Source: an uncultured Desulfobacter sp. (lineage in GTDB: Bacteria > Desulfobacterota > Desulfobacteria > Desulfobacterales > Desulfobacteraceae). Taken from it: a stretch of DNA of 64,000 nucleotides. A program made the translations under genes and the position numbers. The stretch is from assembly GCF_963665355.1 (NCBI RefSeq), contig NZ_OY762229.1:2170001-2234000 (forward strand), in the 5' to 3' direction. Numbering within the stretch: the stretch's first letter is position 1; every line of letters begins with the position of its first letter. Below, one piece after another: positions 29,940-56,429 of the stretch. The notes below the pieces were generated by a model, which was not told where the DNA came from, did no database searches, and worked only from the letters and a program-made list of their open reading frames with translations.

Positions 29940-32900
29940 TCAAGTTTGAACTTGGACAAGGCCCTGGAGTTGATCAATTACAGCGGGAAAGCTTTTTAAG
30001 GTCTTGGGAAGCGAAGCCATGTCAAAGGTTCTGGCCTGTTTGAGTACGGCATCCCCCCACATCTCCAGGGGGGCGTACCCATAGGTCTGGCCCAGTTCGA
30101 CGATCTGCCCGGCAAAGGCTTCGACATTGCCGATAATCATGGTTTCACTGAGGTACGCCCACCGGTCCAGCATCTTGCCCGTGAGCAGGGACAACAACGC
30201 CTTGAGTTTTTCAATCTCCATGGGTGTATAGGTTTGGGCCGGGACAAAGAGCTTATGGAACTCCTTTTTCTCCTGGGCGTCATCTATAACATCGTCCCAA
30301 GGCAGGGTTTGGGTCATTTCGGATACACTTGCGACATTGGGAATGGTCACCAGAAACCGGCTGCCCCTGCCGGGGGTTGAGTTCACCTCAATGGTGCCGC
30401 CCATGGCCTCCACCAGTTTTTTGGATATGGAAAGCCCGATGCCGGTTCCGCCATAGGTGTCAAAGTCCTGGCCCTTCTGCTGGCTGAACCGTTCGAATAT
30501 CCGCTCCTTCTGGCCAGGGGCAATGCCCATGCCGCTGTCCTGGATGATAAAGAACAGCTCTGAAAACAGGGTCCCTTTTTCAAACTGCCGGTATCCGGCC
30601 GTGAGTTTGACAAATCCGGATGAGGTGAATTTAATGGCATTCCCCGTTATGTTCATCAGGATCTGCCTGAGCCGGACCCTGTCCAGAACGATACCGGAGG
30701 GTGTCTGTTCTCCCATCTCCACAGAAAATTCAAGCCCCTTGACCAGGGCGGAATTGGCATAAACCTGGTGAATCTCCCTGAGCAGTCCCCCAAGATTAAA
30801 GGCGGCATAATTCAAAGGGAAATTTCCTGATTCCGCCTTTGACAGATCAAGGATATCGTTGAGCATGGCCAAAAGTGAATTCCCGGCTGAACGGATGGTG
30901 GCCACATACTCTTTAATGGTTTCATCCTGACTCTCTTTATAAATGATATCGGAAAAGCCTATGACCAGATTCAACGGTGTCCGGATTTCATGGCTCATAT
31001 TGGCCAGGAACTCCCCTTTGGCCTGGCTGGCAGCTTCGGCTTTCTCCTTTTCAGCATTGAGGGCCAGGGTCCTCGTTTTAACCATTTCTTCAAGTCTCTG
31101 CTTGTTTTTGAGCAATTCGTTTTCCACCTGGACCTGTTTCTTGAGCAAATCGGATTTCATCCTGTCAATGGCGCGCAGCTGCTCGATGACCTGTTTTTCC
31201 CTTTCCAGCTCCGCTGCCTGAGCCTGGATTTTCTTTTTTACCTCCCTGTGGGCGAGCCGCCAGCCCCCGATCCAGATTCCGGTACCGGTAATGAAATAAA
31301 GTATAAAAGCCCAGGTCCGTTCCCAGGGTGGCTTATCCACCTGGATTTTGACAGCCTTGCCCTGTTTGTTCCATATCCCGTTGTTGTTGCTGCCGAACAG
31401 CCGCAGGGTATAGCTTCCTCCCGGCAGGTTGGTGTACTGGCCGTACCGGCGGGTGCCTGTCCGGTTCCACTGGGTCTCAAACCCTTCAAGAAAATAGGCA
31501 TATTCATTGTTTCCGGGGCGGGTAAAATTCAGGGCTGAAAATTTAAATTCAAAATAGTTTTTCTGCCAGGGCAGATGGATCAACTCAATGATTTCCGGTG
31601 ATTTCCCGATGGTGATGGGTTGCCCCCCCTGTTCAAGGGACACCAGTTTCACCGGCGGGATATAGGGGTTTTTCATGATGTGGTCCGGGTGGAAACGGTT
31701 CACCCCTGAAAGGCCTGAAAACCATAGCTCTCCCTCCCTGCTTTTCAGTGCACTGGTGGCAAAGACACTGAACCGGTCTCCCTGGAGTCCGTCTTTGGCC
31801 GAGTAATGCTCCAGCACCCGGCGATCTTTGGTGTCAAAGAGATACAGTCCCTTGTCAGAACTGAGCCAGAGCCATCCCCTGTCATCTTCCTGTATGGCCC
31901 GTATGGCTCCGCTGGGCAGTCCCTGGGCCTGTGTAACAGGTGTGAACACGCCGGTTTCCCTGTCAAGAAGATGAAGTCCTGCATCTTCGGTACTCACCCA
32001 GAAGCGGCCCTTTTTATCTTCATGGCAGTCATTGATATTGTTCCCCCGCAGTCCGTTTTTCCCTCTTATAAACCGCTGAAAGGTATCTGTGGCGGGGTCG
32101 TAACGGTTCAGTCCGACTTTTGTTGAAATCCACAGGGTTCCCTTGTGGTCCTCAACCAGGTTCAATGCCACGTTGTTGCTCAGACTCCGGGGGGTGGCAC
32201 TGTCATAGACAAACTGCCGAAACCTGCCTGTCTTTTTATTGAACTGGAAGAGTCCGTTTTCCTGGGTGCCGAACCACAGCAGGTCCGGATTGAGACGGTC
32301 CTGAATAAGGGCCCTGGGCGGCGCTCCGGCGACCAGAGGATTCTGATAGGTCGCCTCCAGGGTGTGGTTTTCCCGGTTGTATACATTCAGGGAGCCGTCA
32401 CCCGCCCCCACCCAGAATCGGCCGGCACTGCCCTCACACACAGAATATACCGCTGAAAAGGCCGGGAGTGTTTGTCCAGACGGACCTGCCCCGGAAAAGT
32501 CATCTGACCCGGGATTGAAACGGGAAAGTCCGCCCTGGCTTCCGCCGGCAACCCAGATGGTATTCCGGCTGTCCTGGTAGAGCATGATCACCGAGTTGGA
32601 TCCCAGGCTTGTGCAGTCCCTGGAATTGTGGCGATAGACGGCAAACTGGTGGGCAAATCTGTCCCAGGCATCCACAGGACCTGTGTTTTCAACAGTCCAG
32701 ATAATGCCCTGGCGGTCCATGAAAAGGTCCATGATCTTATCCCCCCTAGGGCTTAAAGGGTTGTCCGGATCATGGCTCAGGCGTGTGAATGTCTGTGAAT
32801 CAATGTTAAAAATTTCGAGCCCCACAGGGTCGGTATAGGAGTGGGAAATCCAGATATCACCTCTGCCGTCGGACATGAGCATGTAGACATAGTTGCTGGC

Positions 32901-33806
32901 GATTCCTTTGGCTTTATCGGGGGCATGGGCAAATTGCCGAATTTCAAGGGTCTGGGGATCAAGGCGCAAAAGTCCGGCTTTGGCTGTGCCTATCCAGAGA
33001 AATCCCTTTGGCCCCTGGATGATGCTGTTGATGCACCCGGGGCCGCCATTTTCTGAATCGCTCTGGGAGTGCTGTCCAAAATGTCCCAGGGAAATCCGGG
33101 CGACACGCTTTGTTCCTTTGTCCAGGCAATTCAGATCCCCGGCCTTGGTTCCGGCCCAGACCCTGTTCTCCCGGTCGATAAAGACCGTGGAAATATTTTC
33201 GTGGCTCAGGCTGTCGGGATTGCCGGGTTCCGGAAGATAGCGGACAAAGGTCCCTTTAAGGGGGTCGTAGATGTTCAGGCCTTGCTGGGTTCCGGCCCAG
33301 ATTTTTCCGTCCCGGTCTTCAGCAATGGTCCTGGGTGACCAGTTGAAAAAATCCGAACTGATGCTGGCCGGATTGTCAGGATCATGCCGGAAATAGATAA
33401 ATCTGTTCAACCGCTTGTCGTAACAATTTAACCCGCCCCCCATGGTGGCCACCCAGATCCTGAAACCGGAACTGTCGGCAAACACACAGGGCGCGATATC
33501 GTTGCTGAGGGAAGCAGGGCCGGATGAAAACCGCTTCATCTCATATCCGTCCCACCGGACCACTCCTTCGGGGGTCCCCACCCAGATAAATCCGTCCCGG
33601 TCCTGGGTAAGGCCGCAATTATATGATCCCGTATCAAAGGGGTGGGAGAACATGGCTCTGAAGGCCAGTGATGCGTCCGGACTGCACAGAATCAGAACCA
33701 GGGCCAGGAATGGAAGCGGGACCAGAAACAGACCAAGACGACCCGGCCGTCCATCCCACATGGGCACCATTTTTTTTTGACACTGTCCCCTGAAGAATGC
33801 CGTCAT
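29940..33806 (-). CDS. Two-component propeller histidine kinase (copy 1)
   Basis: A 1288-residue sensor kinase. An N-terminal signal or anchor is followed by about 14 Reg_prop beta-propeller repeats (each ending in forms of [10 protein letters not shown] / LWFGT) and a Y_Y_Y domain (about 750-825). A TM lies at about 830-852, then a coiled coil, HisKA (SHEIRTPLN, about residue 940) and HATPase (GNAIKFT about 1059, [10 protein letters not shown] about 1119). There is no receiver and no DNA-binding domain, unlike Bacteroides hybrid systems. The C-terminal 100 residues form a helical, Hpt-like region without an obvious phospho-accepting His. The start abuts the racemase stop (33807), so translation is probably coupled. 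Confidence 0.9.
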
Positions 33807-34523
33807 CTATAGAGCTTTTTGCTCCTCTGATTTGAAATAGGTCAGCCGGCTCTGGGAAAGCCCGTTTCGTATCAGGGACTGAAGCATGGTCACTGCGGTT
33901 GTGGTGGGATCAATGACCGGAGCGGGCTTCCCTTTTTCTTTCAGTATCCGGGCCACGCCCCTGGCCACATCCAGCATGCCGGTGCATCCCAGGACAATAG
34001 CCTGGGCGCCGTGGGTCTCAATGGCCTCCAGGCTCACCGCCACCAGCCGTTCTGTCAGTTTTTTCTTCTCTTTGAGTCTGTTGACCGGCATCCCGATGAC
34101 CGGCATGGAGGCGATATTTTCTGCCATACCGTAATCCCTGACCAGGGTCCGGTTCATGGCCACCACCCTGTCCAGCACATTGATGATGGAAAATTTTTGG
34201 CAGATCATGCTGGCCGCCATGAGGGCGCCTGCGAATCCCCCGATGACAGGGATATCCACTAACTCCCGGACCACCGGCACCAGGGGTTCGCCAAAGCAAT
34301 CGATAACGATGCCGTCAAACCCCTGGTCCTGGGCCTTACACGCGATTTTGACGATATCCGGTCCGGCCATGAATTCGTCGTACCGGCCTTCAATGGACTG
34401 GGGACCTTTTTTCAGATTTTCGATGCTGATGGTGCAGTCCGGGGCTTTTACCGTATCCACCTCTTCCTTAACACCGGCGTTGTACTCATCCGTGGCCAGT
34501 GGCACAATGATTTTGATCTTCAT
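33807..34523 (-). CDS. Aspartate/glutamate/hydantoin racemase family protein
   Basis: A 238-residue cytosolic cofactor-independent racemase-fold protein. The two catalytic cysteines are in VIDCFGEP and VLGCTGM, as in the Asp/Glu/hydantoin racemase superfamily. Spacing is closer to hydantoin racemase than to glutamate racemase MurI. It lies between the DUF917 gene (21-bp gap) and the kinase on the same strand. The pairing with DUF917, a family linked to hydantoin-type chemistry, favours a hydantoin or related 5-membered-ring substrate. This is inference. Confidence 0.85.
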   Translation of the reverse strand: MKIKIIVPLATDEYNAGVKEEVDTVKAPDCTISIENLKKGPQSIEGRYDEFMAGPDIVKIACKAQDQGFDGIVIDCFGEPLVPVVRELVDIPVIGGFAGALMAASMICQKFSIINVLDRVVAMNRTLVRDYGMAENIASMPVIGMPVNRLKEKKKLTERLVAVSLEAIETHGAQAIVLGCTGMLDVARGVARILKEKGKPAPVIDPTTTAVTMLQSLIRNGLSQSRLTYFKSEEQKAL

Positions 34524-34544
34524 GGACCCTCCGGGGCAGATGGG

Positions 34545-35645
34545 TTAGGACAGATTTTCAATGGGAACATATTTGCCATAGTACCCGACGTTCTTTAATC
34601 CGGTCAGGAACTGGGCTTTGAGGTAGGTATCGGTCCGGAGCCGCTCCTGGGCCCTGATGCCCACCACATAGACCTTGTCCCCCTCCTGGATATCGGCATT
34701 GGACAGTGCCCGGCCCTTTTTATTAACATATCCGATGCCGTCCGGAGCCATGGCCACAGGACAACTGGTGCCGGCATCCCAGGCGATCATGTTTTCGTTC
34801 TGGTTGACCACATGGATGGTTTTCTTTCCGTCCTCAAAGGTCAGGACACCCCTGTCAAACCCGCCGGATGCCGCCTGGACGATCCGGGTTAATTTCCCCC
34901 GGATAATCAGGGAAACGTCCTTGCCCAGTGCACTGTGAAGCGCCTCCATGGGGTCCTGATATTTGCGCAGGGCCCGGCCCACGTCACGGGCTTTTGTAAC
35001 GGTTCCCCAGATCAGGGGATTTTTTGTCGTAAGATCCTTTTGTTTCATGGCCCAGCCGGCCACGCCTCCGGTTTGGTCAAACTCTCCCGGTACGGAAATA
35101 AAGGGTCTGGCCATGTTTTCTATGTCTGCGGGGGTCTTCCCATAGAGGACGGCCCGGGCGTCAGGTTCATGGAACGTGGATGCGGCTTCGTTGGCCAGGG
35201 TAAAGGGGGAAATGGGAATGGGCTGGGCATAGGTCGTCATGGACAGGGTGGGGACGGCCCTGCCTGACCCGTCGGCGTCCAGGGCCGGAATACCTTTTTT
35301 AACCGCCGTAAGCATGGCGATCAGGGTGTTGACCGACCCGATTTCCCCGGGAACGGCAAAGGCGAATTTCCTGTCCAGGGTTTGCTCCAGAAGATCCCAG
35401 GCCCTGAACACCGAACCGTGGAAACCGATCTGCTTGAGAGCCAGGGGCGATCCCATACAGACCGCCACAGCCCCCGAGGTTTTAGGCGTCACCTCGTCAA
35501 GGCCGATCAGGTCCACATGGGCGGCAATCTTTAAAATTTCCGGGATGATCCATTCCGGGGCCTGGTTGGTGCCTCCGCCCCCGCTTGCCAGAAGGCAGGC
35601 GCCGTTGGCAATGTCTTTGAGTTCCTTTTCTCCAAGTTTCATCAT
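34545..35645 (-). CDS. DUF917 (S-methyl-thiohydantoin desulfurase-like) protein
   Basis: A 366-residue soluble protein of the DUF917 family. Recognisable features include the N-terminal glycine-rich LLASGGGGTNQAPE, VPGEIGSVNTL, ALDADGSGRAVPTLSMTTYA and the C-terminal GYVNKKGRALSNADIQEGDKV-type beta domain. As I recall, the Pfam domain is now named after S-methyl-thiohydantoin desulfurase. Members often sit beside hydantoinase/oxoprolinase subunits, none of which is present here. It is first in a minus-strand run with the racemase and kinase. The partner DUF917 gene is divergent at 36018. Confidence 0.85.
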   Translation of the reverse strand: MMKLGEKELKDIANGACLLASGGGGTNQAPEWIIPEILKIAAHVDLIGLDEVTPKTSGAVAVCMGSPLALKQIGFHGSVFRAWDLLEQTLDRKFAFAVPGEIGSVNTLIAMLTAVKKGIPALDADGSGRAVPTLSMTTYAQPIPISPFTLANEAASTFHEPDARAVLYGKTPADIENMARPFISVPGEFDQTGGVAGWAMKQKDLTTKNPLIWGTVTKARDVGRALRKYQDPMEALHSALGKDVSLIIRGKLTRIVQAASGGFDRGVLTFEDGKKTIHVVNQNENMIAWDAGTSCPVAMAPDGIGYVNKKGRALSNADIQEGDKVYVVGIRAQERLRTDTYLKAQFLTGLKNVGYYGKYVPIENLS

Positions 35646-36017
35646 GATTATATTCCCTTCGACTTTAAGTCAGTCCCCCTGATAGGACCAGGTTTTCCAA
35701 GATACACCCGGCCGATTGGATCCATGGTGAATCAGCCCCTGACACGGGCCGTGAACACTATTCGAATTTGTCTGATTATGAACGCTACCATAAAATGATA
35801 TGCATTGCCAGAGCCATGTAAGCTGAAAGCCAGGGGTTTTTCTTGACAAATAAACAGATTTTATCATAACTTGTGAGCACATTGCTTCACCAGTATCAGA
35901 AAAAGATGTTTTTTCTTTCATCCCGTCGGATTCGGGAACGAAAACCGTCCGTTCAGTAGCTGATCATCTTTCGGAATCATTCTGAACTTACAATATTTGT
36001 CAACAGGAGAGAAAATC
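35646..36017. other. Divergent promoter region between the two DUF917 genes
   Basis: 372 bp, with no credible gene. It holds a plausible plus-strand promoter at 35843-35872 (listed) and the ribosome site AACAGGAGA (36002-36010). It should drive both arms of the propeller-kinase/DUF917 island. Confidence 0.5.
35843..35872 (+). promoter_or_regulatory. Candidate sigma-70 promoter for the plus-strand DUF917 gene
   Basis: A consensus -35 TTGACA (35843-35848) is followed 18 nt later by TAACTT (35867-35872), a weak -10. It would leave a leader of about 140 nt. Confidence 0.35.
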
Positions 36018-37514
36018 ATGTCTGAATCCTTAAAAAGTCCTATTGTTACCTATTCCCAAGACGACCTGTATGATTTCATCGAAGGCGCCACCTTCCTTGC
36101 CACGGGGGGCGGCGGCCCAAAGGACGTGGCCCGGGATTTTCTTAAAAACAGCGGGGTGACGTCAGTGAATGCCATATCCAGCCCCAATGTCCCTGACGGA
36201 ATGTCCATTGCCTTTACCGCTGAGATCTTTGCGCCCTCTGCCATTGAAGTTAAAAGGGATTACATGGCTACTCTGAAATCCTATGAAGGCCTTGTTTCCA
36301 AAGAACCGGGGCTGCTTACCGGTGTGTTGCCAGGGGAAGTCGGGGCCATAAACGGGATTGTCCCGGCCATCATTGCCGGCCTGACAGACTCCTTCCTTAT
36401 TGCAGACACCCAGGCTGACCGTTCACTCCCGGAACTGGATATGGGATTATTCCAGAATATGGTGCCTTATTATTATTTGAACATGCTGGATGACGGCGGC
36501 GGGGTTGTCTGCCAGAAAAGCTATCCCGCTTCAGATGTGGATGCCATGCTGGTGGAAAAGGACGTGGCCGATGCCATGGACGCCCATCCGGAACTGAAAG
36601 GGGTGGGCGGTTTTGCTACCTACCCCATGACGGGCAAGGATTTGAAAGGATATTACAGCCAGGGCCTTCTCAGGCCCTATACCTTTGATTTTGCAAGGCG
36701 GATAGGTGTCTGTATGAAAGAGGCCGGGTTCGAATCCCTGATATTCACAACCGTAAAGGAATGGCTTGGCAGCGGATATACACCTTACCGCATGTTCAAG
36801 GGCTACCTGGTCAATGCAAGGCAGGTTGCGGAAAAACAGGATTACGGCGTGGCCGATTTCATCTCCTCGGATCCTTTGAGCAGCATGGGCGCAAGGGTAT
36901 ATTATTCCAACGAAAACATGATCGCCTATCATACCCTCTGGGTTCTGGTCAGGACCGTTCCCACCCCCATTGAGATCAGCCCCATGGCCATCGGGCCGGA
37001 CGCCATCTGCTACCTGCTTACATCCGCCAGGTACGGCCAGGGGTATGCATTTACCAACGAGGCGTTTACACAGGACTACGGGGACCCGGATTTTTTCAGA
37101 ACCAACGAGATCGAACTTATGGGGTTTCCCGAACCCACCCTGCGCAGGGCAGACCTGACCGCCAACTTCGAGCGGGAAATCAAAGCAACAATGAGTGCTT
37201 TCGGGGAAACTTACCAGGGCCCCTATATCCCCATAGAACAATTACAGGAGGGACAGATTACGGTTGATATCCCCAAATCCCGGGGCCTGAAAAGCGAATC
37301 TTCCTGCCTGACCCTGTCAGGGCCGCACCCGGAGGCCGTGATCCGGTATACCGTTGACAACAGCGAGCCGGACATGGATTCACCTGTATATAAGGCGCCC
37401 CTCCCCCTCGCGGACCTGGCCGGCCGGATTTTAAAGGCCAGGCCCTTTCACGTGAACGGGCTGCCGGGAATGACAACACGCATTGAGTTTCCCTCAAATA
37501 TCCAGGGGGAATAG
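36018..37514 (+). CDS. DUF917 protein with chitobiase-C-like C-terminal domain
   Basis: A 498-residue protein. The start at ATG 36018 follows AACAGGAGA by 7 nt; the frame extends to a TTG at 35997. The first about 410 residues match the DUF917 pattern (FLATGGGGPKDVARDF, LPGEVGAINGIVPA, ADTQADRSLPELDMG, GPYIPIEQL) and are clearly paralogous to the divergent gene. After residue about 420 there is an extra beta domain with the CHB_HEX_C-type motif IRYTVDNSEPDMDSPVYKAP, which in other proteins is an Ig-like carbohydrate-associated module. There is no signal peptide, so this module is cytoplasmic, which is odd. It ends 6 bp before the second propeller kinase. Confidence 0.85.
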   Translation: MSESLKSPIVTYSQDDLYDFIEGATFLATGGGGPKDVARDFLKNSGVTSVNAISSPNVPDGMSIAFTAEIFAPSAIEVKRDYMATLKSYEGLVSKEPGLLTGVLPGEVGAINGIVPAIIAGLTDSFLIADTQADRSLPELDMGLFQNMVPYYYLNMLDDGGGVVCQKSYPASDVDAMLVEKDVADAMDAHPELKGVGGFATYPMTGKDLKGYYSQGLLRPYTFDFARRIGVCMKEAGFESLIFTTVKEWLGSGYTPYRMFKGYLVNARQVAEKQDYGVADFISSDPLSSMGARVYYSNENMIAYHTLWVLVRTVPTPIEISPMAIGPDAICYLLTSARYGQGYAFTNEAFTQDYGDPDFFRTNEIELMGFPEPTLRRADLTANFEREIKATMSAFGETYQGPYIPIEQLQEGQITVDIPKSRGLKSESSCLTLSGPHPEAVIRYTVDNSEPDMDSPVYKAPLPLADLAGRILKARPFHVNGLPGMTTRIEFPSNIQGE

Positions 37515-37520
37515 CCAGCC

Positions 37521-40500
37521 TTGACAGTACCCGGAAAGATGGGACCCGCAAATATCCGGCTGGCACTGATGGCTTGTATCTGTCTCCTGGCGGCGACAAG
37601 TATGCCTGCATGGGCCGGGTTTTCTGTCCAGCACCCCTTCCATACCGGTGCCTATAACAACTGCCTTATCCAGGACAGGGACGGGTTTATCTGGGTGGGC
37701 TGCACCAGCGGCATTGTCCGTTATGACGGTTACACCACAAAATTCATAAAGGCCGGAGACGGCCTGCTCTCTTCGTCCCTTGCCCCCTGTATTTTCGAAG
37801 ACAGCCAGGGCCTTTTGTGGATCGGCACCCTGGCAGGCCTGGACCGGTTCGATAAAAAGACCAACACTTTTACCTGTTATAAAAACGATCCCGCAGATCC
37901 CTGCAGCATCAGCAGCAACCAGTTCAACTGGGCGCCCCGGACCATTGCCCAGGACAGGGAGGGGGGCATGTGGTTCGGCACCCGGGCCGGGGTCAACCGC
38001 TTGGACAAGGCAACCGGGAAATTCACCCGGCTTTGCCATATACCGGGGGATGCCAACAGCCTCAGCCACGATTCTGTCTGGACCGTGGTCGCAGGCAAAG
38101 ACGGGGTGATCTGGATCGGCACCGAGGCCGGGCTGGATGCTTTTTCTCCTGAGACAAACAAAGTGACCCGGTACAGCCACGATCCTGACTCCCCTTCCAG
38201 CCTTGGCAGTGGCCGGGTATATGCGGTGCTGGAAGATGAATGGCCTTTTGTATGGGCGGGCACAAGCCTTGGGGGCCTGAGCCGTCTGAACCGGAAGACC
38301 GGCCGGTTTCTGCGGTTTGAACATATTGCCGGCAACGCCGGCAGCCTGAGCCACAATCCGGTTTACACCATCACCAAAGACCGCAACGGCCTGCTCTGGC
38401 TCGGGCGTCCCTATGACGTGGCCGCAGGCCTTGAATGCTTTGACCCGAAAACTGAAAAATTCACAGTGTACAAACACGTTAAAGACGATGCCCAGAGCAT
38501 TTCCGGCAATATCATCATGGGATGCTTCCAGGACCGGGCAGGCATCTTGTGGATTATTGAAAATACAGGTGCCATAGACAAGTGGGACCCCCACCGCAAG
38601 CCATTTGACCAGTACCGTCACAGGAGCGGGGACAAAAGAGGCCCGAGTTCAAACATCATCACCACCATTGCCGAATCCCATGACGGCAGCCTCTGGATGG
38701 GGACCCAGCTTGGGGGGCTGAACCGGCTTGACCGGAAAACAGGGATGTTCAGAGCCTTTCGGAAAGCCGACTTGAAAGATGCCGGCATTACCAATGATTA
38801 TGTTTTCTCCGTGTTGGAAGATAATGACAACAACCTGTGGATTTCAATGAACAACGGGGTGGTGGGACTGTTTGACCCGGATTCCGGCAGGTTTGAAAAA
38901 CAGTTTGTCAACCCCTATACCGACGGGGTGGCACGGAGCATGATCCAGGACCGGCTGAACCCGGACATCCTCTGGTTCGGCACAGAGGCGGACGGGATGT
39001 TCAAGCTGAACAAACAGAGCGGAAAATTCACCCGGTTCTCCCATGATCCGAAAGATGAAAACAGCCTTGCCTGCAATGTGGTCATACGCCTGTTCCAGGA
39101 ACCGGACGGCTCGCTGTGGGTGCCGACCCTGGGCGGCGGCCTGGACCGGTTTGACACTGCCTGCGAAACCTTTGTCCACTATCGCAAGGATAAGGATAAT
39201 CCCCGGGCCATCAGCGGCGACATGGTGACGGACTGCCACATGGACGGCGAGGGCCGGCTCTGGATCGCCACGAGTGACGGCGGGTTGAACCGCCTTGACC
39301 CCAAGACAGGCAAATTCAGCCTCTACGGGACCGGGGAGGGGTTTGAGACCCGGACCATCCGGGCCATTTTGGAAGATGATATGGGAAACCTGTGGCTGAG
39401 CAGTGATTCCGGCCTGATCCGGTTCAGCCTCTCCTCGGAACGGGTCACCGGCCGGTTTACAGATCAGGACGGACTTTTGGGAAATAATTTCAACCTGTTC
39501 GCTTCCAGTGCCGCCAAAACCCGGGACGGAAAACTCTGGTTTGCAAGTTTTGACGGTGTTATCAGCTTCTTTCCCGATCAGATCAAAAACAATCCCTATA
39601 TTCCCCCGGTTGTCCTGACTACTTTTAACATACCCGGAAGGGGGCTTCCCACCCGGGCCTGCCCGGAAGCCATTGATACTATTAACCTGGACTGGCGGAA
39701 CAACTCCTTTGAATTCGAGTTCGCAACCCTGAACTTTACCCAACCCCGGAAAAATAAGTATGCCTATTTTCTGGAAGGTTTTGACAGCGAATGGAATCAG
39801 AGCGGCACCAGGCGTTACGGCAGCTATACCAATCTGCCCGGTGGAAGATATCTGTTGCGATTGATCGGGGCGAACAATGACGGGGTGTGGAACGAAAAGG
39901 GTTCCCGGATTACAATCCATGTGGCGTCTCCGCCCTGGAAAACCCCGTGGGCATACTGCCTGTACAGTTTCATGGGGATGGCTGTCTGGCTGTGGGGATG
40001 GAAACAAACGTCAAGAAATATAAGTAAAAGGCTGGCGGCTAAGGAAGCGGAACTGGAAAAAGAAAAACAGATCAATGACCAGCTCAAAAACATTGACAAG
40101 ATAAAATCCGAATTGCTTGAGAAAAAAGCCCATGTTGAAAACAGGCTTAGAAACAATAAGGCAAGACTGGAAAACATGGTCAAGGTGCGCACGGCGGAAC
40201 TCAAGGCAGAAAAAGAAAGAGTAGAAGACGCAAGCCGGGCAAAAAGCGAATTTTTAGCCAACATGAGTCATGAAATCAGAACACCTTTGAATCTTATTCT
40301 CGGGTACTCGGAGATGATTGAAAAACAGAGTCTGGATGATTCAACACTTGGATATATATCCACCATCCGCTCCGCAGGCGCCACCCTTTTAACCCTGCTT
40401 AACGATATCCTGGATCTGTCCAAGGCGGAGTCTGGCAAGTTTACCGTGGAATACGCCCCCTTCAATCTTGATCGCCTGTTTGAAGAGATCCGGCAGATTT

Positions 40501-41309
40501 TCTTCATAACCGCCAAGAACAAGGGGCTGGCTTTTCATATAGAAAAAAGCATGACTCTGCCCGCCGTTATTGTTTTGGACAAGACACGGCTGCGCCAGGT
40601 GCTTATGAACATCGTGGGTAATGCCGTAAAGTTTACAAAGGAAGGGTATATCAGACTCAGAGCAGATTTTCATGAGTATGACCGGGGAGATCTGTTTTCT
40701 GAATTGTTATTCTCCGTCGAGGATACCGGTATCGGTATTGCCCCGGACCAGAAAGAGCTGATCTTCGAGCGGTTCAGTCAGCAAAAGGGCCAGGATTTCA
40801 ATACGTATGGGGGCACCGGCATCGGACTTTCCATCTCAAAAAAATTGATTACGGCCATGGGGGGGACCATCTCAATAGAAAGCATTCCCGGCCGGGGCAG
40901 TAAGTTTTCGGTATCCATTCCCAATGTTACTACCCTTGATTTCCCGGGCCTTCCGCCATCCGATCCGCCCGGGACCGACTCTGCGCCTGAACCCGAGTCG
41001 GTGCTGCCGGATCAGGAGATTTCCCCTGAAATCTTTGCAGGGCTGCCCGTTTTGCTGAAGCGCCTGGAAAATGAATTGAAGCCCAGATGGGAATATATAC
41101 AAGGAGCCCTGGTCATCCCAAGAATCGAATCGTTTTCAAAGGATGCGATTGCCCTGGGTGTCCAATACCGGTATGACCCGTTAAAGCTGTGGGCCAAAAA
41201 ATTGCAGAACCTTGCCCGGGAATTCGACATGGCCCATCTGCCTGACACCCTGGCAGGATTTCCGGGTATAATCAACGAACTTGAGATCCTGGTTAACAAC
41301 GCCCGATAA
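37521..41309 (+). CDS. Two-component propeller histidine kinase (copy 2)
   Basis: A 1262-residue paralogue of the kinase at 29940-33806, with the same order: signal peptide (cleavage near PAWA|GFS), about 14 Reg_prop repeats, Y_Y_Y domain, TM, coiled coil, HisKA (SHEIRTPLN, about residue 916), HATPase ([10 protein letters not shown]) and a His-less Hpt-like helical tail. The start is either TTG 37521 (AGGGGGA 10 nt upstream) or ATG 37539. The cytoplasmic halves are almost superimposable ([20 protein letters not shown] in both). The propellers differ more, suggesting different ligands. No receiver or response regulator is nearby. Confidence 0.9.
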   Translation: MTVPGKMGPANIRLALMACICLLAATSMPAWAGFSVQHPFHTGAYNNCLIQDRDGFIWVGCTSGIVRYDGYTTKFIKAGDGLLSSSLAPCIFEDSQGLLWIGTLAGLDRFDKKTNTFTCYKNDPADPCSISSNQFNWAPRTIAQDREGGMWFGTRAGVNRLDKATGKFTRLCHIPGDANSLSHDSVWTVVAGKDGVIWIGTEAGLDAFSPETNKVTRYSHDPDSPSSLGSGRVYAVLEDEWPFVWAGTSLGGLSRLNRKTGRFLRFEHIAGNAGSLSHNPVYTITKDRNGLLWLGRPYDVAAGLECFDPKTEKFTVYKHVKDDAQSISGNIIMGCFQDRAGILWIIENTGAIDKWDPHRKPFDQYRHRSGDKRGPSSNIITTIAESHDGSLWMGTQLGGLNRLDRKTGMFRAFRKADLKDAGITNDYVFSVLEDNDNNLWISMNNGVVGLFDPDSGRFEKQFVNPYTDGVARSMIQDRLNPDILWFGTEADGMFKLNKQSGKFTRFSHDPKDENSLACNVVIRLFQEPDGSLWVPTLGGGLDRFDTACETFVHYRKDKDNPRAISGDMVTDCHMDGEGRLWIATSDGGLNRLDPKTGKFSLYGTGEGFETRTIRAILEDDMGNLWLSSDSGLIRFSLSSERVTGRFTDQDGLLGNNFNLFASSAAKTRDGKLWFASFDGVISFFPDQIKNNPYIPPVVLTTFNIPGRGLPTRACPEAIDTINLDWRNNSFEFEFATLNFTQPRKNKYAYFLEGFDSEWNQSGTRRYGSYTNLPGGRYLLRLIGANNDGVWNEKGSRITIHVASPPWKTPWAYCLYSFMGMAVWLWGWKQTSRNISKRLAAKEAELEKEKQINDQLKNIDKIKSELLEKKAHVENRLRNNKARLENMVKVRTAELKAEKERVEDASRAKSEFLANMSHEIRTPLNLILGYSEMIEKQSLDDSTLGYISTIRSAGATLLTLLNDILDLSKAESGKFTVEYAPFNLDRLFEEIRQIFFITAKNKGLAFHIEKSMTLPAVIVLDKTRLRQVLMNIVGNAVKFTKEGYIRLRADFHEYDRGDLFSELLFSVEDTGIGIAPDQKELIFERFSQQKGQDFNTYGGTGIGLSISKKLITAMGGTISIESIPGRGSKFSVSIPNVTTLDFPGLPPSDPPGTDSAPEPESVLPDQEISPEIFAGLPVLLKRLENELKPRWEYIQGALVIPRIESFSKDAIALGVQYRYDPLKLWAKKLQNLAREFDMAHLPDTLAGFPGIINELEILVNNAR

Positions 41310-47283: not shown

Positions 47284-47778
47284 TCAATTTTCTTCAAATC
47301 GGCCTAATTCTCTGTTTTTTCTAACCTTGTCCCCCGAAAATATTTTTCCGTTCATGGCGATATACACACCGGGGCAGGCCTTTTGAACAGCCCCTAATGC
47401 ACAGCCGATATTAAAAACCGCATCCGTGGCACTGAACATGGCCGGAAGAAGAGCGCCTGTGAGCACGACAGTTTTATCTTTTGCACCGCCATGGGCGATG
47501 ATATGCCTGGCTGTTTCCGGCATGGTATCTGTCCCGTGGGTAATAATAATCATCCTGCAGGGATCTGCCGCAACCGTTTCAGCGATAAGTTCCCTGTCTT
47601 CATCTGTCAGGTTCAGACTGTCTTTACGCATGAGTGATGTAATGGTGAAAGCAGCCTGCAGGTTGAATTGATTAAGCACCTCAATGGCGTTGGGAGGCCC
47701 GACTTCATATTCACTTTTTGCATCAAAGTAAATTTTATCAATGGTTCCGCCGGTGGCAATAATTGAAATTGTGTCCAT
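47284..47778 (-). CDS. Half-length asparaginase-domain protein
   Basis: A 164-residue protein covering only the N-terminal catalytic domain of L-asparaginase-type amidohydrolases (usual length about 330). Both active-site motifs are present: ATGGTID with the nucleophile Thr, and THGTDTMPET with the second Thr/Asp. There is also VVLTGALLP. The C-terminal domain is absent and no remnant follows. Stand-alone asparaginase-domain proteins of this size exist in other proteobacteria, so it is probably a genuine short form. Start at ATG 47778 (AAGGA 6 nt upstream) rather than 47784. Confidence 0.8.
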   Translation of the reverse strand: MDTISIIATGGTIDKIYFDAKSEYEVGPPNAIEVLNQFNLQAAFTITSLMRKDSLNLTDEDRELIAETVAADPCRMIIITHGTDTMPETARHIIAHGGAKDKTVVLTGALLPAMFSATDAVFNIGCALGAVQKACPGVYIAMNGKIFSGDKVRKNRELGRFEEN

Positions 47779-47917
47779 GTGCATTCCTTCTTAAAGCCTG
47801 TTATGATCATTGTCCTTTCCGGAAGAGGAATCAAATTCATCTGTTTTTGTATAGACATTTCGACATAAAAGCAATAATCGTTATCTTTACCCGAAAGCCT
47901 AAAAAGGCAAATGAACT

Positions 47918-48010: not shown

Positions 48011-51000
48011 ATGAGACTTTTACGGCTGTTATTCGGAATTCCGGCGATTTTGCTGTTTGGATTAGTGGTATCAAAACAAATCTTTCCACCTAGGGCAGAG
48101 GCTGCTCAATATGATTCCTTGCCGACTGATTTTTCACAGAATAAAGAAGCCATTCTGATACTGGATACCAAAGGGCACTCCGGTGTGGTCAGCCATGTCA
48201 TCACCACCAGGGAGAAGGAGATTATCTCCATCGCAGATGACAAAACCATCCGCATTTTCGATGAACAGGGAACCGAAAAACGAAAAATATTGGGCATGAT
48301 CGGCCCGGGGCCCCAAGGCGTCATAAATACCATTGCATTGAGCAAGGATGAACAGTATCTGGCCGTTGGCGGTTACTTTGACCGATATGATGGAAAAAAT
48401 GCCGGTGATATCCGCATTTATCATTACCCGACGGGAAAATTAACTCGCCTTCTCAAATCGCACAGGAACACCGTGGTGGGCCTGTCATTTAGCAGCGATG
48501 GCCGGTACCTCATATCCGGCTCCACCGACAGGACCGCCAAGATCTGGGACGTTCAGAATGGTTTTCAACTGGTGGACACGATCACTGTTCATGGCAACGA
48601 AGTTTATGCAGTGGGCATAGTAAAGACAAATAACGGCTATAGTGCGGTCACAGCCGGGTTTGACGGAAAAATTGCGCTTTACAGCATAAATCAAAAAAGG
48701 ATTATTGCCACCCGCCAAACCGATTTAATATTGCAGCAAATGGCATTCTCCAGGGACCACATTGCCCTGGCCGGAAACAGCAAGCAAATAAAAATTTATG
48801 ATCACATGCTGACACCTGTCCTGACCCTGGAACATTCGTCAGAGCCCAGCGGGATTGTATACAGTCCTGACGGCACCCTTTTCATTGCTGGAACCAGAGC
48901 TTCCCAGGGAAAGGTGGTCACCTACAATGCGAAAAAGAATTATCAGATCCAGAGCGCTTTCCATGCAGAGATCAATGTCGTGGGCCGCGTGGGTTTTCCG
49001 GACCCCAATACCATAGCCAGCGCCGGGAGAGATTTTAGTTCCATTTATCTGTGGGATATTCACAGCGGAAAAGTGAAATCCAGGATTGAAAGTGCAGGAA
49101 GAACCGTCTGGAATGTGGGCATTCACGGAGAGGACATTGCCTGGAGAAATATTATAAATGACAACAATCAAAAGCAACCCACCGTCCTGTGCAAAACATT
49201 CAGCTTCAAGGACTTCACCATAAACGATTGTCGTGGTCCCATGGATGTTAAAGTCATCAGTCAAAAAAACGGAAACCTGACCCTGTCCCATCGAAGCGGC
49301 GGAATCTACAAGCGCCACAACGCCGTTCTTGAAGTTCAAAAAAATGGCGTGAACATCGCGTCCGTGGCCAGGGATCAACACAGTGGATTTGGGCATAATT
49401 ACTATGGCTGGTATGGGGATTTGATCGTCAGCGGCGGCATGAACGGCGTACTTGAGATTTACAACCGGGAGGGGGTCAAAATGGCCACCCTGCAAGGTCA
49501 TCGCGGCGCGATTACCCAAATTGCCCTGGATAATGACCGGCTCGTCAGCAGCAGCAGTGATCAAACCGTTCGAATCTGGAACCTTGCTCAACTGGACAAA
49601 AACAAGCGGGTTATGGTTAATGAAAAATTAGTTTCCGAACTCATGCACCAGGCCGGGTGCACAAGAGCCCAGGTGATTGACAATGCCGCCCTGATACAAG
49701 AGAAAAGCGGACTAAGCATATATGTCACGGATATCCAGGTGATCAAGCCCGTTGTCAATATATTCGCGACCCGGACCAATGAATGGGTGGTGTGGACTAA
49801 CGAAGGTTTTTTTAACACCTCCAAGGCGGGGGCAAAGTATGTCGGCTACCACATCAATCAAGGGCCCGACAAAGAGGCGGAATATCTATCGGTGGACAAA
49901 TTCTATGACAGCTTTTACCGACCCGATCTTGTTGTGAAGGCGCTGCATGGTGAAGATTTGAAGGCCTACGCGTCTCGGATTAATATTGATGAAATTCTGA
50001 AAGGCGGCCTGGCCCCCCAAGTCGCCATAAACACGCCGTCCCACGCAAGTAAAGACAAAGATATCGTTTTGAACCTGAGCGTATGCGAAAAAGATGGCGG
50101 ATACGACAATCTGACATTGATATTGAACGGCATGGCCATTGATATCCTGAGCAAGGACAGGGGATTGATGGTTACAAATAAGAAAACAGCGGACAACCAC
50201 TGCTTCAGCTTTGAAAAATTGATATCCCTGCAAAATGGAGACAACCGCATCGGGTTCAAGGCCACCAACCGGGCCGGCAACATTGAATCCAACCTGGCCG
50301 AAATAGATGTAACCTATAAAGGAAAAAGCATGGGCAAGCCGGACCTTTACCTTCTGGCTGTCGGGGTTGACCGATACAGGGACGGGGATCTGTGGCTGAA
50401 ATACTCAAAAGCCGATGCGCAAGAGTTGATCCGCACGGTTTCAAGTGTGTCCAAACCATTGTTCGGCAGCATTCACACCCGCACACTGTTTGATCAGGAT
50501 GCCACAAAATCAGCAATCACCCAGGCAATCGCTGACATCGGCAAAAAAACCAATCGGGAAGACGTATTCATGCTCTATGTCGCCGGGCACGGCATCACCG
50601 ACAGCAAAACCGGGGCGTACTTTTTTCTTCCCGTTGATTTCAGATATAAGGATGAATCCAGCGTGAACCAGTTTGGTCTGTCCCACAATGATTTCAAGCA
50701 GGCACTGTCAACCATCCAGGCCATTAAGTCGCTGATTATTTTAGATACCTGCAATAGCGGCAGTTTTGCCGAAGCGTTTGCCAGCCGCGGGATATTGCAG
50801 AAGACAGCCATAAACAAACTTACCCGTGCCACGGGAAGAGCGACCATTGTGGCTTCAGCAAAAAACCATCAGGTGGCGCTGGAAGGTTACAACGGGCATG
50901 GCGTGTTCACTTACACGGTGATAGAGGCATTGGCCGGTGAAGGATACGGGAAGGACAATCAAATTACCATCAAGGAACTGGCGTCCTATATCGAAGATAT

Positions 51001-51091
51001 CCTGCCCGATCGAACCTATCAAAAGTGGGGATACGAGCAAATCCCGCAATCGAGCATCACCGGAAATGATTTTCCCATCGGTGTCCGGTGA
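48011..51091 (+). CDS. Exported WD40-repeat caspase-like (C14) peptidase
   Basis: A 1026-residue protein. A signal peptide or anchor (about 1-31, ending near RAEA) points to export. Residues about 45-560 are WD40-type repeats (HRNTVVGLSFSSDGRYLISGSTDRTAKIWDV, read in parts). A linker with Ig-like/beta character (about 660-770) follows. The C-terminal caspase-fold peptidase (about 775-1026) has the catalytic dyad His860 in YVAGHGI and Cys914 in LDTCNSGS. The WD40 part probably recognises a partner or senses state, and the peptidase cleaves a target. It is transcribed alone, divergent from the asparaginase-domain gene. The role is unknown: regulated self-killing, envelope stress and development are all possible. 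Confidence 0.88.
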   Translation: MRLLRLLFGIPAILLFGLVVSKQIFPPRAEAAQYDSLPTDFSQNKEAILILDTKGHSGVVSHVITTREKEIISIADDKTIRIFDEQGTEKRKILGMIGPGPQGVINTIALSKDEQYLAVGGYFDRYDGKNAGDIRIYHYPTGKLTRLLKSHRNTVVGLSFSSDGRYLISGSTDRTAKIWDVQNGFQLVDTITVHGNEVYAVGIVKTNNGYSAVTAGFDGKIALYSINQKRIIATRQTDLILQQMAFSRDHIALAGNSKQIKIYDHMLTPVLTLEHSSEPSGIVYSPDGTLFIAGTRASQGKVVTYNAKKNYQIQSAFHAEINVVGRVGFPDPNTIASAGRDFSSIYLWDIHSGKVKSRIESAGRTVWNVGIHGEDIAWRNIINDNNQKQPTVLCKTFSFKDFTINDCRGPMDVKVISQKNGNLTLSHRSGGIYKRHNAVLEVQKNGVNIASVARDQHSGFGHNYYGWYGDLIVSGGMNGVLEIYNREGVKMATLQGHRGAITQIALDNDRLVSSSSDQTVRIWNLAQLDKNKRVMVNEKLVSELMHQAGCTRAQVIDNAALIQEKSGLSIYVTDIQVIKPVVNIFATRTNEWVVWTNEGFFNTSKAGAKYVGYHINQGPDKEAEYLSVDKFYDSFYRPDLVVKALHGEDLKAYASRINIDEILKGGLAPQVAINTPSHASKDKDIVLNLSVCEKDGGYDNLTLILNGMAIDILSKDRGLMVTNKKTADNHCFSFEKLISLQNGDNRIGFKATNRAGNIESNLAEIDVTYKGKSMGKPDLYLLAVGVDRYRDGDLWLKYSKADAQELIRTVSSVSKPLFGSIHTRTLFDQDATKSAITQAIADIGKKTNREDVFMLYVAGHGITDSKTGAYFFLPVDFRYKDESSVNQFGLSHNDFKQALSTIQAIKSLIILDTCNSGSFAEAFASRGILQKTAINKLTRATGRATIVASAKNHQVALEGYNGHGVFTYTVIEALAGEGYGKDNQITIKELASYIEDILPDRTYQKWGYEQIPQSSITGNDFPIGVR

Positions 51092-52716: not shown

Positions 52717-53838
52717 ATGAACAGCGTTACACAGATTGATTGTCTCATTGATGATCTGATAGAAAAAAATGCCGCATTTGCCTGCTGGTTTCAGTCCTCC
52801 AGTGACAGCCCGCAACTGATTGCGGGAAGTGCCGGGGATATCATATTCCCGCAGAGTATTCAGCAGTTGAGCCAGGTCCGCGGGTTTGTATTTGCCCCCT
52901 TTAAAATATCCCGGAATGTCCCTGTCATTGTTTTGCAGCCGGCCATACACCTGAAAGGGTACAGTCAGATCCAGGCCTTTGACCCGGATACCCTGGATGA
53001 GACGCCGTTTCACCAGGAAACAAAAAAACCTTGCATCTCAACGGATTTTCAGGATTACCTCATTTGCGTCAACCATGCCATTGAACAGATCCACGCCGCA
53101 AGATTCTCCAAGGTCATTGTCTCCAGGCGTATTTGCAAAGAGAAAAAACATGAATCCCTAGGATCTTTGTTTCTTGGCATGCGTGAAAAAAATCCGGGCG
53201 TATTTGTCTTTGTGGTGAACTTGCCCAGGGCCGGACTTTGGATGGGGGCCACCCCGGAACTGCTCTTCCGTTCCGATGGGCGGCATGCCCAAACGGTGTC
53301 CCTGGCCGCCACCCAGCCCCGTCGTCCCGATGGGCAATACTGCTGGTTTACAAAAGAGATCGAAGAGCAAGCCTTTGTCTCCAGGTATACGGTGGATGTA
53401 CTCCACAGGTTTGGTTTTTCATCCTACCAGACAAAGGGCCCCCAGGACCTTGAAACCGCCACCGTGGCCCACTTGAAAACCTCTTTCTTCTTTTCCGGGG
53501 AACCCATTGAAGACCGGCTTGGGGAATTTGTGGAACAGCTTTGCCCCACGCCTGCGGTCTGCGGCCTTCCCAAGGCCGAGGCCGGTCAGTTTATCAATGA
53601 CTTTGAACCCCACGACAGGCGTTATTATACCGGGTTCCTGGGGCCCTGGCGCCTTGAAAAAAGCGGAACCGACGTGTATGTGAACCTGCGCAGCATGGAA
53701 ATTGAAGACACCCAGTATGTCCTTTACACCGGCGGGGGGATCACGGCCCGGTCCAACCCGGAACAGGAGTGGGAGGAGACCTCCCAAAAGTCCAGAACCC
53801 TTTTAAACGCCATTGAGGCGTTGCAGGAACAGGTGTGA
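52717..53838 (+). CDS. menF: Isochorismate synthase MenF
   Basis: A 373-residue chorismate-binding enzyme converting chorismate to isochorismate, the first step of menaquinone synthesis. The C-terminal ADIC/anthranilate-synthase fold is visible: RFSKVIVSRR, GATPELLFRSDG, TVSLAATQPRRP, QLCPTPAVCGLPK, YYTGFLGPW and YTGGGITARSNPEQEWEE. The N-terminal 120 residues are more variable and somewhat short. The stop overlaps the menD start by one base (TGATG), so coupled translation is expected. Confidence 0.93.
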   Translation: MNSVTQIDCLIDDLIEKNAAFACWFQSSSDSPQLIAGSAGDIIFPQSIQQLSQVRGFVFAPFKISRNVPVIVLQPAIHLKGYSQIQAFDPDTLDETPFHQETKKPCISTDFQDYLICVNHAIEQIHAARFSKVIVSRRICKEKKHESLGSLFLGMREKNPGVFVFVVNLPRAGLWMGATPELLFRSDGRHAQTVSLAATQPRRPDGQYCWFTKEIEEQAFVSRYTVDVLHRFGFSSYQTKGPQDLETATVAHLKTSFFFSGEPIEDRLGEFVEQLCPTPAVCGLPKAEAGQFINDFEPHDRRYYTGFLGPWRLEKSGTDVYVNLRSMEIEDTQYVLYTGGGITARSNPEQEWEETSQKSRTLLNAIEALQEQV

Positions 53839-55565
53839 TGATCTCGACAAAGCGCCATGTGCAGCAGCTTGCATCCCTGTTTTTCAGCAGAAAAATTTCA
53901 GATATTGTGCTGTGTCCCGGATCCAGGAACGGTCCCTTGATCCATACCCTGGCCGGGTGCGGGCAATTTGACTGCCGGGTGATTGTGGATGAGCGCAGTG
54001 CCGGTTATTTTGCTTTGGGGCTGGCCCAGGCAAGGCAAAAACCGGTTGTGATCGTGTGCAGTTCGGGGACCTCTGCGGTGAATTTTGCCCCGGCTGTGGC
54101 CGAGGCCTTTTACCAGAATATCCCTTTGATCGTGGTGACGGCGGACCGGCCCGCCTACTGGATAGACCAGCTGGAAAACCAGAGCATCCACCAGGAGTCA
54201 CTCTACGGTAATTTTATAAAGCAATCGTGTTCCCTGCCCCTGGAGGAGTCTGACAGCCAGTTATGGGCGGGCGCGCGTCTGATCAACGATATCCTGAATA
54301 CGGCCGTGACTGATGCCCCGGGACCTGTGCATATCAATATCCCCCTTGAAGAACCTTTGCACCGGACCGTGGATGGGCAGCTGCCTGGTGTTAAGGTCAT
54401 CGAGGATGCGGATACACGGACAGCTCTTGACGAGAAGATTTTGTCCCGGGTGGCCGAAGAGATCAGCCAAGCAGATAAAATACTTGTACTGGCAGGCCAG
54501 TCTGCAGCCAATCCGGAACTCACCAGCGCTTTGCTCGGGTTTGTAAAGAAAACCTGTGCCGTGGTTGCCGCAGAGCACCTTGCCAATCTTTCCATGCCGT
54601 CTGATTTCTGCTGTGCCTGTCCGGAACTGGTGCTCGGGTCCATAAGCCATGGTGATGCGCCCATTTTCCAGCCTGATCTGCTTATCACCTTTGGCAGGCA
54701 CTTTGTCTCCAAACGTATCCGGCAGTTTTTAAGAGATTACAAACCGGCCACACATATCCATGTGGATGCCGGCGGCGGCCATATGGACACCTACCAGGCA
54801 TTGACCCGGGTTTGCGCCGTCAGGCCTGAACGGTTTTTTGAACAATTGGACGAAATGCTGGCCCCAAAGTCATCCAAATGTTATGCTGGAGCCTGGAAAG
54901 ACAGGAAACAGGAGACTCTGCAAATTTACAACCATTATCGGGAAAAAGTCCCTTTCAGTGATTTTACCGTATGTTCCGCCATATTAAAGTCAGTTCCCGA
55001 AAATGGCGTCCTGCATCTTGGCAACAGCTCCACCGTAAGGTATGCCGTATTAAACCCCGGCATTAAGGGGCTTACCTGGCTTGGCAACCGGGGGACCAGC
55101 GGTATTGACGGCTCTGTTTCAACGGCGGTGGGATATGCCTCATGCAGTTCAAAAATGAATACGCTCATCCTGGGGGATCTCTCTTTTTTTTACGATTCAA
55201 ATGGGTTATGGAATAAATACCTGGGGCCAAACCTGAGGATTATTGTACTCAACAACGGCGGGGGCAATATTTTCAGTTTTGTGGAAGACCTTGCCGGCCG
55301 TACAGAGAAGGATAGTCAGGCGGTATTTCAAAACTATTTTTTTGCAGGCCACAGCGCAAAGGCCCGGGGACTTGCATCGGCATTCGGGCTGGACTATCTG
55401 CAGGCCGGCTCGGATTCCCAGTTGGGCAGGGCCCTTGAAGAACTCTATAATCCTGATCGGATTACCCCCACCCTTTTAGAGGTGTTTACGGATGCCGGGA
55501 CCAACACAACGGTTTTTAAAGGTTTGTTTAAAGAGCTTAAAAAGCTAACTATACATGGAGAGTGA
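53838..55565 (+). CDS. menD: SEPHCHC synthase MenD
   Basis: A 575-residue thiamine-diphosphate enzyme joining isochorismate and 2-oxoglutarate. Visible are CPGSRNGPL near the N-terminus, VDERSAGYFALGLAQA, VVCSSGTSAVNFAPAVAEA, and the ThDP/Mg motif GDLSFFYDSNGLW...NNGGGNIF (conserved GDxxxxxDxN pattern). ATG 53838 sits within the menF stop; GTG 53835 is the longer alternative. The final codons hold the ribosome site of menB (GGAGAG). Confidence 0.94.
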   Translation: MISTKRHVQQLASLFFSRKISDIVLCPGSRNGPLIHTLAGCGQFDCRVIVDERSAGYFALGLAQARQKPVVIVCSSGTSAVNFAPAVAEAFYQNIPLIVVTADRPAYWIDQLENQSIHQESLYGNFIKQSCSLPLEESDSQLWAGARLINDILNTAVTDAPGPVHINIPLEEPLHRTVDGQLPGVKVIEDADTRTALDEKILSRVAEEISQADKILVLAGQSAANPELTSALLGFVKKTCAVVAAEHLANLSMPSDFCCACPELVLGSISHGDAPIFQPDLLITFGRHFVSKRIRQFLRDYKPATHIHVDAGGGHMDTYQALTRVCAVRPERFFEQLDEMLAPKSSKCYAGAWKDRKQETLQIYNHYREKVPFSDFTVCSAILKSVPENGVLHLGNSSTVRYAVLNPGIKGLTWLGNRGTSGIDGSVSTAVGYASCSSKMNTLILGDLSFFYDSNGLWNKYLGPNLRIIVLNNGGGNIFSFVEDLAGRTEKDSQAVFQNYFFAGHSAKARGLASAFGLDYLQAGSDSQLGRALEELYNPDRITPTLLEVFTDAGTNTTVFKGLFKELKKLTIHGE

Positions 55566-55568
55566 CAC

Positions 55569-56393: not shown

Positions 56394-56429
56394 TTTGGGC
56401 TTAGGTCTCCTTAATTTTATCAGGTGCAA

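Follow-up and report, generated by a model that had tools for sequence, protein, structure and literature searches.

The 64,000-nucleotide stretch analysed here (the window) comes from an uncultured Desulfobacter sp. of the Desulfobacteraceae (contig NZ_OY762229.1, positions 2,170,001 to 2,234,000) and carries an island of five genes, in which two propeller histidine kinases (HK1 and HK2) enclose two proteins of the DUF917 family (DUF917a and DUF917b) and a member of the Asp/Glu/hydantoin racemase family (RAC). The island most likely consists of two operons which were inherited separately and placed head to head in this genome. On balance, both would probably be members of an old operon kind, "DUF917, with or without racemase, then propeller histidine kinase", where the DUF917 and racemase proteins are accessory to signalling. 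Three parts of this reading were taken directly from the sequences: the recurrence of the gene pair, the correlated divergence of DUF917b and HK2, and the repeated absence of the enzyme genes from loci where the kinase was kept under its leader.

The genes are ordered HK1(-), RAC(-), DUF917a(-), a gap of 372 bp, DUF917b(+) and HK2(+) (Table 1). The ATG of HK1 is touched by the stop codon of RAC (0-bp junction) and 6 bp separate DUF917b from HK2, confirming the mirror layout, the gene positions and the kinase junctions of the original prediction, which had been made from the letters of the window. For DUF917b, the ATG at 36018, in agreement with the orthologue alignment, was preferred over the TTG at 35997. 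Pfam analysis revealed the same domain order in one chain of HK1 and HK2, namely Reg_prop repeats, Y_Y_Y, HisKA and HATPase_c, which identifies both as Reg_prop propeller histidine kinases. As judged by eye, HK1 has a hydrophobic N-terminal segment before the propeller and a second one between Y_Y_Y and HisKA, and HK2 likewise has two membrane segments. The kinases share 45% identity over 1,273 aligned positions, end to end, and the DUF917 proteins 23% over 417, so that the predicted paralogy of both pairs was upheld by pairwise alignment. Among the 109 genomic matches to HK2 (E <= 0.001), the propeller was reached by HK1 and HK2 itself only, the other 107 starting at query residue 826 or beyond. 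The clustering in the island is unlikely to be a chance result, because just these two kinases reach the propeller and two of the three DUF917 genes of this genome sit here.

The recurrence of the link was followed by six-frame scans, on which all adjacency counts are based; relatives are designated below by G numbers, G000 being this genome. DUF917b was matched (E <= 0.001) in eight genomes of the 98 relatives: at full length with at least 53% identity in six of them (its own genome, G302, G322, G348, G321 and G334), more weakly in G362 (29%), and in the added domain only in G382. A scan of the genome collection gave six loci, four already known and two new (56% and 44%; G664 and G555). All eight DUF917b genes found with 44-100% identity are directly followed, on the same strand, by a propeller kinase. 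The two genes are separated by 6 bp in three loci (window, G302, G322), by 11 bp in two (G321, G334) and by 34 bp in G348 (the start codons of G664 and G555 are unsure). In these eight loci the DUF917b distances were correlated with those of the kinases (r = 0.935; 1 of 5,000 permutations as high), as they were after addition of the arm 1 pair (r = 0.785; 8 of 5,000). In the order, PF06032 was detected in 16 of 389 genomes, at 20 places, eight of which lie directly before a propeller kinase (with RAC between in the case of DUF917a); no propeller was present in the stretches fetched for the other 12, some of which are short contigs. Outside the order, 13 PF06032 places were found in 9 of 395 genomes, none with a propeller kinase in the fetched stretch.

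Seen from the kinases, 10 of the 18 readable members of the group have a DUF917 gene upstream: HK1 and HK2 of the window, HK2 of G302, and the kinases of G322, G348, G321, G334, G664, G555 and G359 (a fragment in the last case). In this count G305 and G661, which start at contig ends, were set aside, the sequences of G348 and G331 are incomplete at the opposite end, and G660 and G669 were assigned to the group by their 54% identity to HK2 and not by the tree. Seven more distant propeller kinases were also inspected; one starts at a contig end and DUF917 was found in none of the stretches of the other six, further propeller matches existing outside this set. RAC was matched in 19 of 389 genomes of the order, and outside its own genome only G299 (88%) and G359 (46%) exceeded 33%; each of the three racemases with at least 46% identity (3 of 389 genomes) directly precedes a propeller kinase gene. 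In G359, which belongs to another family of the same order, the contig reads DUF917 fragment, 22-base gap, RAC, 75-base gap and propeller kinase, as in arm 1, and the kinase also has receiver, PAS and SpoIIE parts.

A chance neighbourhood, in which DUF917 and kinase have no working link, would be compatible with the missing DUF917 beside eight of the 18 kinases. This explanation is very improbable in view of the link at 10 kinase loci in nine genomes, the short spacing in the DUF917b loci (6-11 bp in five, 34 bp in G348), the correlated distances and the lack of any such pair in the stretches fetched for the 13 places outside the order. The tight coupling put forward in the original prediction is sustained, as is the occurrence of the adjacency in other genomes, which it had named as a check. 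No DUF917b relative was found in viral contigs, and four plasmid records had distant matches. When the regions 5' of DUF917b were aligned for a shared regulatory motif, only G000-G302 and G321-G334, out of 21 pairs, scored above all shuffles. In G362 (L097 7319-13712), a DUF917 gene of the same group was observed about 0.44 kb from a PAS histidine kinase, divergent from a kinase-NtrC pair and without a propeller.

The two arms were then compared for their ancestry. Five genomes of the genus have an HK1 orthologue with 73-79% identity (G299, G301, G302, G312 and G305, the last partial), and HK2 is 77% identical to its counterpart in G322, 74% in G302 and 51-59% in the others of its group. A kinase tree (19 sequences, of which two are fragments; some branches long, the place of G555 unsettled) joined HK1 to the G359 kinase (93/96) and placed HK2 in a group with kinases from other genera (97/98). 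Both loci occur on one contig of G302, HK1 at 1.22 Mb and the DUF917b-HK2 pair at 3.01 Mb, about 1.8 Mb apart. The original prediction had regarded the arms as an inverted duplication that diverged, a local event to which the mirror layout and the paralogy of both gene pairs would correspond. Given that the arms are not each other's closest relatives in the tree and that their loci are separate in G302, this origin is scarcely credible and was rejected in favour of two operons brought together. Of the two observations named beforehand as jointly fatal to the original prediction, different closest relatives of the arms were found and an adjacency restricted to this genome was not.

The region upstream of DUF917a contains a conserved leader. 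Its counterparts lie immediately before HK1 in G301, G302 and G312 and before RAC in G299, with alignment scores of 95-127 against at most 42 in shuffles. The same arm 1 leader precedes a shortened kinase in G300 and G311 (scores 73-96; shuffle maxima 32-55). It holds a sigma-70-like pair, CTTACA-16 nt-TATCAT, from 35822 to 35795 (9/12 match), the first hexamer of which reads differently in G301; three sites of that grade were found in 651 bases against 0.6 expected. Under this one leader a series of loci can be arranged: the full operon in the window, DUF917a lost in G299, RAC lost too in G301, G302 and G312, and the propeller lost as well in G300 and G311, where the N-terminal hydrophobic segment continues directly into the second and then into the kinase part. 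In G299 the intact RAC is preceded by a DUF917a remnant of about 19 codons (68% across 19 residues, E 0.002; 95% across 42 bases), and the first 57-59 bases of RAC remain just before HK1 in G312 and G302 (scores 47-54; largest shuffle 33; 0 of 300). No RAC remnant was detected in G301 (scores 18 and 26, matched by 293 and 35 of 300 shuffles). Two observations speak for loss of the enzyme genes rather than gain: RAC remnants are present in G312 and G302, the genomes which differ most from the window in synonymous divergence (dS), and the gene order of arm 1 recurs in G359. An insertion of RAC and DUF917a beside an HK1 belonging to the genus core was also considered and ruled out by the G299 RAC with its DUF917a remnant and by the RAC remnants and leader elsewhere. 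Enzyme loss at the HK1 locus appears in at least three distinct states; states and not events were counted because one state may be a later step of another. In G312 the gene across the leader codes for an alpha/beta hydrolase, with just a 34% partial match in this genome.

A comparable situation was found at HK2-type loci. G664 and G339 are about 80% identical in DNA along two stretches, one of 2.4 kb that runs through the LonB gene and one of 8.5 kb that starts at the kinase, and between LonB and kinase G339 has kept a 51-base leader block and misses DUF917b. On the upstream side, between FKBP and LonB, some 0.74 kb is absent from G339 as well, so that DUF917b is not the sole difference. The kinases of G331, G660 and G669 are likewise without an adjoining DUF917b. 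Simple pairwise estimates of dN/dS gave 0.157 for HK1 of G312 against G302, both enzyme-less (0.209 for the propeller and 0.098 for the kinase part), 0.219 for the propeller-less kinases of G300 and G311, and 0.17-0.28 for other HK1 pairs. By these estimates the kinases are under continued purifying selection after enzyme loss. With enzymes repeatedly lost and the kinase kept, the kinase should not be there solely to control the enzymes.

Both DUF917 proteins belong to the family by their PF06032/PF20906 scores (107.2/100.9 bits for DUF917a and 41.8/32.9 for DUF917b; cut-off 27). Neither was recognised by the models for thiohydantoin and S-methyl thiohydantoin desulfurases (NF058529 and NF058532): DUF917a scored 59.8 and 57.0 against cut-offs of 440 and 450, and DUF917b gave no hit. 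The DADGxGRAxP stretch, which most aligned members have, is kept in DUF917a and altered in all eight DUF917b proteins (DTQADRS in the window, DSTSDRS in G555), whereas GGGG and NENM are retained in DUF917b. A sequence search against structures matched DUF917a with 2o3i (E 1.1e-40) and gave no match for DUF917b, the predicted model of which matched 2o3i in Foldseek (E 5.1e-11); as this model is middling (mean pLDDT 67.3, 7 sequences), the fold match alone was used. DUF917b also has an added C-terminal Fn3_assoc/CHB_HEX_C_1-like domain (Pfam), in agreement with the extra domain noticed earlier. In a tree of 31 DUF917 proteins, whose long branches leave the inner order unsure, a single group (100/99) comprises DUF917a, the eight DUF917b and the proteins of G362, G458, G660 and G661 and is set off from the remainder. 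Near the DUF917 gene of G458 (L141 3141-5686), an ORF pair (136 and 101 aa) is repeated three times in tandem. The third DUF917 gene of this genome (L093, G000 C3:18000-37999) is on a 59.7-kb contig with URO-D, FMN_red, MFS and pterin-binding genes and MalT-like TPR/LuxR-type regulators.

RAC aligned over residues 22-237 of 238 with 3qvj, a putative hydantoin racemase (E 1.1e-30), and contains both 3qvj cysteines, which are serines in the variant 3qvk. By PF01177 together with two catalytic-type cysteines, the racemases of the window and G299 qualify as putative hydantoin/allantoin racemases and that of G359 does not. A hydantoin-type substrate would fit these family assignments.

In the mechanism that we propose, each arm would be transcribed as one unit and the propellers of the kinases would bind or read a periplasmic signal. 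The cytoplasmic DUF917 and RAC proteins would act on the signal compound or on a related one, presumably a hydantoin-type cyclic amide if the families are a guide, and so tune the input rather than form a full degradation pathway. HK2 could pass its phosphate to a separate receiver protein. Such a protein adjoins the kinase in eight HK2-type loci, upstream of DUF917b in G322 and downstream in G321, G334, G664, G339, G660, G669 and G661, and is a candidate HK2 partner. It has a cysteine-rich tail with CxxC pairs (L146 6781-7362, -). This genome encodes an orthologue (70%) roughly 1 Mb away (C2:1152801-1153367), and the FKBP gene adjoining it shares 64% identity with the one near the G664 locus. 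The CxxC tail alone was also observed in other G000 proteins, two of them with PAS or HAMP domains, and Pfam gave no family for it. It is conceivable, if rather doubtful, that DUF917 and racemase are detachable input parts of a sensor kinase and not a nutrient pathway; DUF917b would then be a signalling DUF917 subfamily with remodelled chemistry.

The main competing explanation develops the self-contained sense-and-degrade system of the original prediction: the kinase would detect an external compound, hydantoin- or thiohydantoin-like as predicted or else cyclodipeptide-like, and induce DUF917 and racemase, which would break it down as a nutrient. It is compatible with the families to which DUF917a and RAC belong and with their retained motif and cysteines, as well as with the alpha/beta hydrolase and asparaginase-domain fragment 5-6 kb to the right of the island. 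In an excerpt of PMC11055893, cyclodipeptide-oxidase gene clusters are described as enriched in hydantoin racemases and DUF917 proteins, and the latter, termed experimentally uncharacterised, are suggested from comparisons to be hydantoinases. We nevertheless consider this system unlikely. Transporter, hydantoinase and carbamoylase genes were all absent from the five island genes and the ten scanned right-hand genes (left-hand genes were outside the scan), so that no hydantoin-utilisation operon, taken as a cluster with one of these functions, was recognised within that scope. The desulfurase scores are below their cut-offs, the DUF917b motif is altered, and relatives retain the kinase after enzyme loss, which is unexpected if it serves only the substrate of the enzymes. 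Several DUF917 genes elsewhere seem to adjoin transport genes, as judged from protein starts rather than by a domain search, in contrast with the island.

Alternatively, DUF917, or at least DUF917b, could be a non-catalytic protein which contacts the kinase and senses a cytoplasmic metabolite together with it. The altered yet conserved core motif of DUF917b, its added domain and its divergence in step with the kinase would agree with such a role, which the retained GGGG and NENM stretches and the persistence under constraint of kinases without DUF917b make quite improbable.

Several observations also weigh against the favoured reading, an operon kind with enzymes accessory to signalling. The link is not obligatory, the kinases without DUF917 being those of G299 (RAC only), G301, G312, G302 (HK1), G339, G331, G660 and G669. 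The distance correlation still includes shared species history. Two distant DUF917b-like genes (28%, G660 and G661) were not seen beside a kinase; that of G660 stops 360 bases short of a contig edge, no kinase was present in the G661 stretch, and each genome has an HK2-like kinase on another contig. In G359, DUF917 is represented by an 82-aa fragment where the contig ends, and RAC lacks the first of the two cysteines. Neither in the window nor in G302 does the receiver protein adjoin HK2. Finally, the losses could equally reflect a catabolic trait which was lost while the kinase had other targets.

Table 1. Features of the DUF917-propeller kinase island (positions in the window).
Feature	Position	Strand	Basis
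HK1	29940-33806	-	Pfam; orthologues 73-79% in five genus genomes (one partial)
RAC, Asp/Glu/hydantoin racemase family	33807-34523	-	PF01177, 120.5 bits; alignment with 3qvj
DUF917a, S-Me-THD-like	34545-35645	-	PF06032 and PF20906 above cut-off; match to 2o3i
Operon leader with sigma-70-like promoter	35679-35841 (approximate)	-	aligned in G301, G302, G312, G299, G300 and G311
DUF917b leader block	35953-36017	+	common to G302 only; score 68 against 40 for the largest of 100 shuffles
DUF917b, divergent, with C-terminal Fn3_assoc-like domain	36018-37514	+	Pfam; orthologue alignment; Foldseek to 2o3i
HK2, propeller histidine kinase, TTG start	37521-41309	+	Pfam; kinase also 3' of DUF917b in seven other loci

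The whole island contains 16 promoter-like sites against 9.0 (sd 3.4) in shuffles and 28 terminator-like sites against 15.9 (sd 4.5). To its right, the asparaginase-domain protein (47284-47784, -; 166 aa) matches the N-terminal asparaginase domain only. It is followed by a protein of 1026 aa that combines WD40 repeats with a caspase (Peptidase_C14) domain at its C-terminus (48011-51091, +) and by a row of chorismate-binding, TPP-enzyme, enoyl-CoA hydratase and MenC-like genes (52717-57470, +), which we take to resemble a menaquinone cluster.

Little experimental work has been devoted to the DUF917 family, for which NCBIfam now holds two desulfurase models, and a recurring operon link to a sensor kinase provides a handle on the function of a part of it. 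The deletion series in close relatives offers, one after the other, natural losses of the enzyme, the racemase and the sensor, the roles of which could be examined by comparison among existing strains. In the open-access literature on "DUF917" or "PF06032", as represented by titles, the beginnings of abstracts and one passage, no link to a kinase is named. Searches of the same literature returned nothing on propeller regulators with Desulfobacter, on propeller with kinase and racemase, or on Desulfobacteraceae with hydantoin.

In the hybrid two-component systems (HTCS) of Bacteroidetes, a C-terminal receiver and an AraC-type HTH are present in the same chain. Reg_prop, Y_Y_Y, HisKA and HATPase_c are common to these propeller regulators and to HK1 and HK2, but Pfam detected neither a receiver nor an AraC-type HTH or other DNA-binding domain in the two kinases, which are thus not HTCS members; unlike HTCS, they are linked to DUF917, and several HK2-type kinases are adjoined by a separate receiver protein. 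The DUF917 proteins of the island resemble the S-methyl-thiohydantoin desulfurase-like family (PF06032 and PF20906; 2o3i) by both domains and, for DUF917b, by the fold, and differ from it by the low desulfurase scores of DUF917a and by the altered core motif and extra domain of DUF917b. RAC is similar to the hydantoin/allantoin racemases (PF01177; 3qvj, 5lfd) in its alignment and retained cysteines, whereas its gene abuts a sensor kinase gene with zero gap. As in the DUF917-racemase-AroM genes of cyclodipeptide oxidase clusters, in so far as the excerpt of PMC11055893 describes them, DUF917 and a PF01177 racemase occur together in the island, but its five genes include no oxidase or AroM and carry propeller kinases instead.

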